This document shows positions 1,991-2,814 of a stretch of DNA of 64,000 nt, piece after piece. A program made the translations under genes and the position numbers. The stretch is from Phytomonospora endophytica (GTDB lineage Bacteria; Actinomycetota; Actinomycetes; Mycobacteriales; Micromonosporaceae). The DNA lies in contig NZ_JACHGT010000019.1 in NCBI RefSeq assembly GCF_014202425.1, forward strand, positions 77,367-141,366, written 5' to 3'. Within the stretch, counting starts at the first letter, position 1. Each line of letters opens with the position of its first letter. The notes beneath the pieces were generated by a model. That model saw only the letters and a program-made list of their open reading frames with translations. It ran no database searches and was not told where the DNA came from.

Positions 1991-2043
1991 GTCAACCTGG
2001 GGTTGACGAACTCCATGCGTCAACCTATGGTTGACGCATGGAG
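1991..2043 (+). promoter_or_regulatory. Promoter enclosed by two palindromic operators (leaderless)
   Basis: Operator 1 is GTCAACC-TGG-GGTTGAC (1991-2007). Operator 2 has perfect 15-bp arms, CTCCATGCGTCAACC (2011-2025) and its complement (2029-2043), around TAT, and it includes the start codon. Both share GTCAACC-N3-GGTTGAC, with centres 28 bp apart. A promoter fits exactly inside them: TTGACG at 2003-2008, a 17-nt spacer, TATGGT at 2026-2031, then 6 nt to the ATG at 2038. A bound repressor would cover both promoter boxes and the first codons. The encoded protein has an HTH, so autoregulation is likely. Confidence 0.7.
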
Positions 2044-2772
2044 CGCTATCCCGTTCGCCTCGGCGACCTCATCGAATTCGTCAACCAGCAACCCGGCGGC
2101 CCGCTCGACCACCTGTCGGCCGCTTCGGAGATCGGTGCCTACCTGGACGAGATCTCCGACCATCTCATCGGCCACTTCGTCGACCAGGCCCGCCGGGCGG
2201 GCTCCTCCTGGAGCGAGATCGGCCAGTACATCGGCGTGAGCAAGCAGGCCGCGCAGAAGCGTTTCGTCGCCAAGGCCAGCGACCTGCCCACTCAGCTGTC
2301 GGGCGCCTTCGCCCGCTTCACCGCCCGGGCCCGGCACGTCACCGTCCAGTCCTCGGCCGAGGCGCGGGCCATGGGACACCAGGAGGTCGGCGGCGAGCAC
2401 ATCCTCCTGGCGCTGCTCGTCGAGCCCGACGCCCTCGCGGCCCGGGCGCTGGCCGAACAGGGCGCCGACGAGGCGAAGATCCGCGCGTCCGTGGCGGCCG
2501 CCCATCCGGCCACGGACGAGGAGACGCCCGAGCACATCCCCTTCAGCGCGGAGGCGAAGAAGATCCTCGACCTGACCTTGCGGGAGGCCCTGCGCTACGG
2601 CCACAACTACATCGGCACCGAGCACATGCTGCTCGGGATCCTGCGTGACGGGAAGGGTATCGGCGCCAAGGTCCTCGACGAGCTCGGCGTGCGGCGCAAG
2701 GTCGCCGAGGCGTGGATCGGCGGCGAGCTGGCGAAGCTGACGGCGGGCGGGGACGTCGGCGAGGCGGAGTAG
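2038..2772 (+). CDS. HTH plus Clp N-domain protein (putative autoregulator)
   Basis: The 244-residue protein has two parts. Residues ~1-80 include SWSEIGQYIGVSKQAAQKRF, a helix-turn-helix-like segment. Residues ~95-235 resemble a double Clp N-domain, with VGGEHILLALL and IGTEHMLLGIL as the two repeat hallmarks. No AAA+ ATPase module follows, so it is not a ClpC unfoldase; it may act as a regulator or substrate adaptor. Its start codon sits inside a 33-bp palindrome and the message would be leaderless. A strong hairpin terminator follows directly, so the gene is monocistronic. Function beyond DNA binding is inference. Confidence 0.75.
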   Translation: MERYPVRLGDLIEFVNQQPGGPLDHLSAASEIGAYLDEISDHLIGHFVDQARRAGSSWSEIGQYIGVSKQAAQKRFVAKASDLPTQLSGAFARFTARARHVTVQSSAEARAMGHQEVGGEHILLALLVEPDALAARALAEQGADEAKIRASVAAAHPATDEETPEHIPFSAEAKKILDLTLREALRYGHNYIGTEHMLLGILRDGKGIGAKVLDELGVRRKVAEAWIGGELAKLTAGGDVGEAE

Positions 2773-2779
2773 GCGGGGA

Positions 2780-2808
2780 GCGGGCGGGCCTGGTCCAGGC
2801 CCGCCCGC
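2780..2808 (+). terminator. Rho-independent-type hairpin
   Basis: Perfect 14-bp arms (2780-2793 and 2795-2808; GCGGGCGGGCCTGG and its complement) lie 8 nt after the stop codon of the ClpN/HTH gene. There is only a short T stretch, as is usual in high-GC actinobacteria. Confidence 0.7.
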
Positions 2809-2814
2809 TTGCGT

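Follow-up and report, generated by a model that had tools for sequence, protein, structure and literature searches.

A ClpC2 ortholog in Phytomonospora endophytica, its paired operators, and the N-terminal helix-turn-helix that probably reads them

Introduction

Near the start of the 64,000-nucleotide stretch of Phytomonospora endophytica DNA analysed here (the window) lies a gene whose sequence identifies it as an ortholog of ClpC2 (Rv2667) of mycobacteria. By analogy with that system, its product is very likely a dimeric autorepressor and Clp decoy that reads its operators through a helix-turn-helix (HTH) and is released from them upon binding of a ligand. The system is already known, and the window holds an ordinary member of it in a new organism; the earlier observation holds, but most of it already has an explanation. 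New here is the argument that the published view of the N-terminal domain rests on a truncated HTH, together with a set of split, two-gene operons having a shifted operator spacer. The present analysis contributes the gene, its domains and its operators, as well as the conservation of these operators and their exclusivity to clpC2.

In mycobacteria, ClpC2 represses its own promoter via CGTCAAC-n5-GTTGACG sites (Taylor et al., 2023; PMC10030653). One such operator is found 1–2 nt upstream of the ORF and a second copy upstream, across the -35 and -10 elements, and the clpC2 transcripts were inferred by these workers to be apparently leaderless (PMC10030653). Cyclomarin A binds ClpC2 with a KD of 2.2 nM, resulting in derepression and in sponging of the ligand; binding of ClpC1 to the clpC2 operator is weak and of little specificity (PMC10030653). 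The core idea of an earlier note on this DNA, that of a sensor of Clp ligands or substrates repressing its own leaderless promoter, agrees with what has been published for this ortholog (PMC10030653).

Results

The protein is a ClpC2 ortholog

The features of the locus are collected in Table 1. The Clp_N domain is matched with E=1e-28, and no AAA+ domain or ATPase was found in the 244-residue protein. The earlier note held this combination of a Clp N-domain and a DNA-binding segment without an ATPase to be unusual; our ortholog searches instead find the architecture to be common enough in actinomycetes, with the other orthologs ~50% identical to the window protein. Residues 3-67 match the solved M. 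tuberculosis ClpC2 N-domain (8ada, E=4e-17), to which the predicted structure aligns across residues 5-67 with a Z of 11.1 and an rmsd of 1.4, and the C-terminal half matches both the ClpC2 C-domain (8ad9) and the N-terminal domain of ClpC1. The latter shares 44% identity across the Clp_N domain and the same fold, although in ClpC1 it belongs to an AAA+ unfoldase. A Foldseek search with the whole protein returned, among the matches listed, only Clp_N hits. The linker at residues 80-86 is modelled with low confidence.

The likeness to ClpC2 of M. tuberculosis and M. smegmatis extends from the domain order and the Clp_N C-domain to the dimer residues of the N-domain, which is homologous to residues 4-72 of Rv2667 and in which the D46/R57 salt-bridge pair of the M. 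tuberculosis protein corresponds to D41/R52 here and is invariant in 55/55 orthologs. Within the ligand site (F2, F80 and E89 in the cyclomarin site of ClpC1), F91 and F169 are retained. The equivalent of E89 is an aspartate (D178), a difference from Rv2667 owing to which the ligand here may be a different one.

Table 1. Features of the clpC2 locus and of the split operons of the same genome (window positions unless a contig is given)
Feature	Position	Strand	Description
Distal operator O2	1991-2007	.	GTCAACC-TGG-GGTTGAC, GTCAACCTGGGGTTGAC; right arm overlaps -35 box
-35 box TTGACG	2003-2008	+	promoter scan
15-bp-arm palindrome across start codon	2011-2043	.	CTCCATGCGTCAACC-TAT-GGTTGACGCATGGAG; outer arms without conservation
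Proximal operator O1	2019-2035	.	GTCAACC-TAT-GGTTGAC, GTCAACCTATGGTTGAC; contains -10 box; ends 2 nt upstream of ATG
-10 box TATGGT	2026-2031	+	inside O1
clpC2 ortholog	2038-2772	+	244 aa, ATG start, probably leaderless mRNA; ORF, domain and homolog searches
N-terminal five-helix domain, residues 8-76	2059-2265	+	AlphaFold2 prediction; predicted HTH, helices 58-65 and 69-76
Clp_N domain, residues about 91-221	2308-2700	+	like ClpC1 N-terminal domain
Perfect 15-bp-arm hairpin	2779-2809	.	7 nt past clpC2 stop codon; no T tract
Split operon L043/L125	G000:C3, about 109.2 kb		HTH mini-protein of 70 aa and Clp_N-only gene; two N4 palindromes before ATG
Split operon L042	G000:C18, about 195.8 kb		HTH mini-protein of 76 aa and Clp_N-only gene; degenerate palindromes

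Paired operators straddle the promoter

The two operators, whose starts are separated by 28 bp, bracket the TTGACG-17-TATGGT element, the sole promoter-like site in the scanned region 1900-2900 (shuffled mean 0.0). As in mycobacterial ClpC2, the element CGTCAAC-n5-GTTGACG is present next to the ORF, with the ATG straight after it, and is repeated upstream, across the -35 and -10 boxes. The ATG begins, with its first base at 2038, 7 nt past the -10 box, a spacing that fits a putative leaderless clpC2 mRNA. The palindromes and promoter boxes thus lie where the earlier note had placed them, except that TTGACG does not fall wholly within the palindromes, as it extends one base beyond the distal 17-mer. 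The genome search proposed in that note for GTCAACC-N3-GGTTGAC, an exact 14-base motif, finds it exclusive to this gene: the 8.35-Mb genome has 2 copies, both at this locus, as against ~0.02 expected per genome from base composition. A wider N5-operator regulon in this genome was considered and rejected; the only other GTCAAC-N5-GTTGAC site (C1:379252) is single and lies inside a CAP-domain gene, and we take it to be a chance occurrence.

The pairing is maintained across actinomycetes. We assembled 109 orthologs, namely 29 from the family (the window's included) and 80 named orthologs, and the paired sites are kept in every one of them, the distal one with ≤2 mismatches, the proximal site ending 2–3 nt upstream of an ATG and the operator starts lying 28 or 29 bp apart, corresponding to a promoter spacer of 17 or 18 bp. 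The homologs lacking upstream palindromes that would have spoken against autoregulation were thus sought and not encountered among these 109. Only C-GTCAAC...GTTGAC-G forms the conserved core. At positions 7-8 of the proximal site, which are the T and A of the -10 box, conservation reaches 99%, whereas the equivalent positions of the distal site are nearly random. This contrast shows that the proximal operator has the -10 box built into it and that the actual palindrome consists of CGTCAAC/GTTGACG. The 15-bp-arm palindrome across the start codon, to which the earlier note drew attention, does exist, but only the ~8-bp arms CGTCAACC/GGTTGACG are conserved; because arm pairing past this point drops to 0.39, 0.31 and 0.17 in the 109 orthologs, the longer arms are incidental, and we have ruled the palindrome out as a special element.

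Could these palindromes be a mere by-product, either of chance or of a terminator for the upstream MFS gene, whose stop codon at 1987 is followed 3 nt later by the start of O2? There is no T tract, the position is fixed relative to clpC2 at a distance from the ATG that is kept in 109 orthologs, and the reversed pattern used as a control gives 0 matches in 101 Micromonosporaceae genomes and 0 in 198 genomes class-wide; by chance, about 0.02 copies would be expected per genome. The conservation refutes this explanation, to which we attach next to no probability. The true N5 pair occurs in exactly one copy in each of 59/101 Micromonosporaceae genomes, at clpC2 wherever coordinates were compared, and in 39/198 genomes class-wide.

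Two flanking elements are recorded for completeness. The hairpin downstream of clpC2 is possibly a terminator. A 14-nt inverted repeat, GTAAGGACTGTAAG / CTGACAGTCCTTAC (637-650 and 712-725, 93% complementary), lies between two tandem MFS transporter genes and is possibly an operator of another regulator.

Which domain reads the DNA

In the published work, the N-domain is a bundle of four helices that serves dimerisation, and contact with DNA is inferred from two arginines of the C-domain (PMC10030653). An AlphaFold2 model built on 55 orthologs predicts five N-terminal helices, the final two of which (58-65 and 69-76) adopt an HTH arrangement, with residues 69-76 as the predicted recognition helix; this fifth helix bears Q70, A71, Q73 and K74, invariant in the 55 orthologs. 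The 8ada crystal fragment, shortened by proteolysis, covers residues 5-67 and lacks the fifth helix altogether. Because the solved N-domain ends just before the predicted recognition helix, the dimerisation-only view of this domain rests on a truncated HTH. When the N-domain alone was submitted to a fold search, 8ada was returned along with weak HTH matches (ParB, KorB) of moderate score (Z about 6). Since there is no strong HTH fold match, the HTH assignment rests on the layout of the helices, on the Pfam hits of the split homologs described below, and on a match to RelI. The same region of ClpC2 has already been termed an HTH in the RelI paper (NAR, 2026), where HHpred relates the two at 99% (PMC13284704), and we also recover this match. 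The RelI antitoxin (Rv2664) differs from ClpC2 in being the short antitoxin of a toxin-antitoxin pair, without a Clp_N domain.

The rival proposal, that of Taylor et al. (2023), is that the Clp_N C-terminal domain reads the operator by way of the helix carrying R182/R186 (R185/R189 in M. tuberculosis), with the N-domain serving to dimerise only. The R185A/R189A double mutant indeed binds DNA more weakly by EMSA and is derepressed 2.0-fold (PMC10030653). Both arginines are present in the window protein and conserved in 54/55 and 53/55 orthologs, respectively, and R186 is replaced by Q in ClpC1. On the other hand, the N-domain mutant R57A is derepressed 4.6-fold, more than the C-domain mutant (PMC10030653), and some orthologs with perfect operators (L012, L013, L019) carry A or Q in place of R182. 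Neither does this proposal sit well with the absence of the predicted recognition helix from the crystal, or with the split relatives. There, the same half-sites accompany HTH mini-proteins that have no Clp_N domain fused to them (29/30 family and 28/28 class loci read), and just 13/29 of the Clp_N partners have R where ClpC2 has R186, even if such a partner might join in DNA binding. We regard reading by the C-terminal domain as unlikely. The base-specific contacts with the operator are probably made by the HTH and not by the Clp_N domain, as the model suggests, and the C-terminal domain may also contribute to DNA binding in the fused protein, given its conserved arginines. The N-terminal DNA-binding segment of the earlier note is thereby supported by model, family and operator evidence, against the published placement of DNA contact in the C-terminal domain.

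Split relatives and the operator spacer

The same genome encodes two HTH mini-proteins, each followed immediately by a Clp_N-only gene. The split mini-protein exceeds the Pfam HTH_23 cut-off and has V67, [ST]68, [KR]69, Q70 and K74 in common with ClpC2. These operons resemble clpC2 in having a homologous HTH, a Clp_N protein, and GTCAAC...GTTGAC sites that stand, in pairs or singly, immediately before the ATG in promoters that are leaderless-like; they differ in making two separate proteins and in an operator spacer of N4 rather than N5. Among 30 family relatives of the first mini-protein, 29 have two GTCAAY-N4-RTTGAC sites ending 3–4 nt before the ATG, one has no site in the region read, and 29/30 partner genes were extracted as Clp_N-type proteins. 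In a class-wide split set (n=28, 3 loci of which are also in the family set), N4 sites are found at 28/28 loci and N5 sites at 0/28, and 26/28 have an adjoining Clp_N gene. Our literature search turned up no description of the operator of the split operons. The Clp_N-only protein may correspond to mycobacterial ClpC3.

Since the fused and split forms share the HTH and the half-site, yet differ in the arrangement of Clp_N, it is the HTH that would read the half-site. The presence in one genome of two paralogous mini-proteins (L042, L043) with very similar half-sites also raises the question of whether the palindromes at clpC2 are bound mainly by another regulator, such as one of these HTH and Clp_N paralogs, and not by ClpC2 itself. 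We judge this very improbable: the spacer classes are unmixed, with N4 sites at 0/109 fused-gene promoters and, in the class set, N5 sites at none of the split ones, and binding in vitro has been shown for mycobacterial ClpC2 and the N5 operator of its own gene (PMC10030653). It is possible, from these sequence patterns, that spacer length (N5 for fused, N4 for split) insulates the paralogs from one another.

Paired N4 sites are also seen elsewhere. A second pair in this genome (L157 1501-1544; G000:C3:350094-350137) stands 4 nt upstream of the start codon (ATG) for a DUF998-like membrane protein, and a MarR-type gene comes next (both named by eye), the candidate regulators being the MarR protein itself or the split HTH. 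In other Micromonosporaceae (L160, L168, L171, L173, L174, L175), such pairs, often GTCAACTACGGTTGAC or its complement and 29 bp apart, stand upstream of FAD monooxygenase, alpha/beta hydrolase and DUF998-like genes, possibly constituting a detoxification regulon.

Discussion

Autorepression, operator binding, cyclomarin binding and derepression are known from the mycobacterial orthologs, and we infer the same behaviour for the protein of the window. The N-terminal domain would dimerise and place the HTH, with its predicted recognition helix 69-76, on the two 17-bp operators, whose occupancy across the -35 and -10 boxes would restrict the leaderless clpC2 transcript to a low level. In the C-terminal half, the Clp_N domain would mimic the substrate-receptor domain of ClpC1, and its binding of a ClpC1-type ligand, such as a cyclomarin-like peptide or possibly an unfolded protein, would cause DNA binding to be lost. 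Induced in this way, ClpC2 would soak up the ligand, and ClpC1 would be spared.

On balance, we favour a broader reading, with less assurance than the assignment of this one protein: that ClpC2 represses as a genuine HTH protein, the helix that reads the DNA being absent from the only N-domain crystal, and that it is one member of a larger family of HTH/Clp_N sensors in actinomycetes, fused or split, with the GTCAAC half-site in common and with paralogs separated in one cell by a single-bp difference in spacer (N5 vs N4). ClpC2 weakens the effect of cyclomarin, a lead compound directed at the essential ClpC1 protease, and has been the subject of recent work on Clp-targeting antibiotics and protein degraders. 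If the HTH does read the operator, then derepression would need a signal passing between the domains, as opposed to direct occlusion, and the split operons suggest further Clp-ligand sensors, widespread in actinomycetes.
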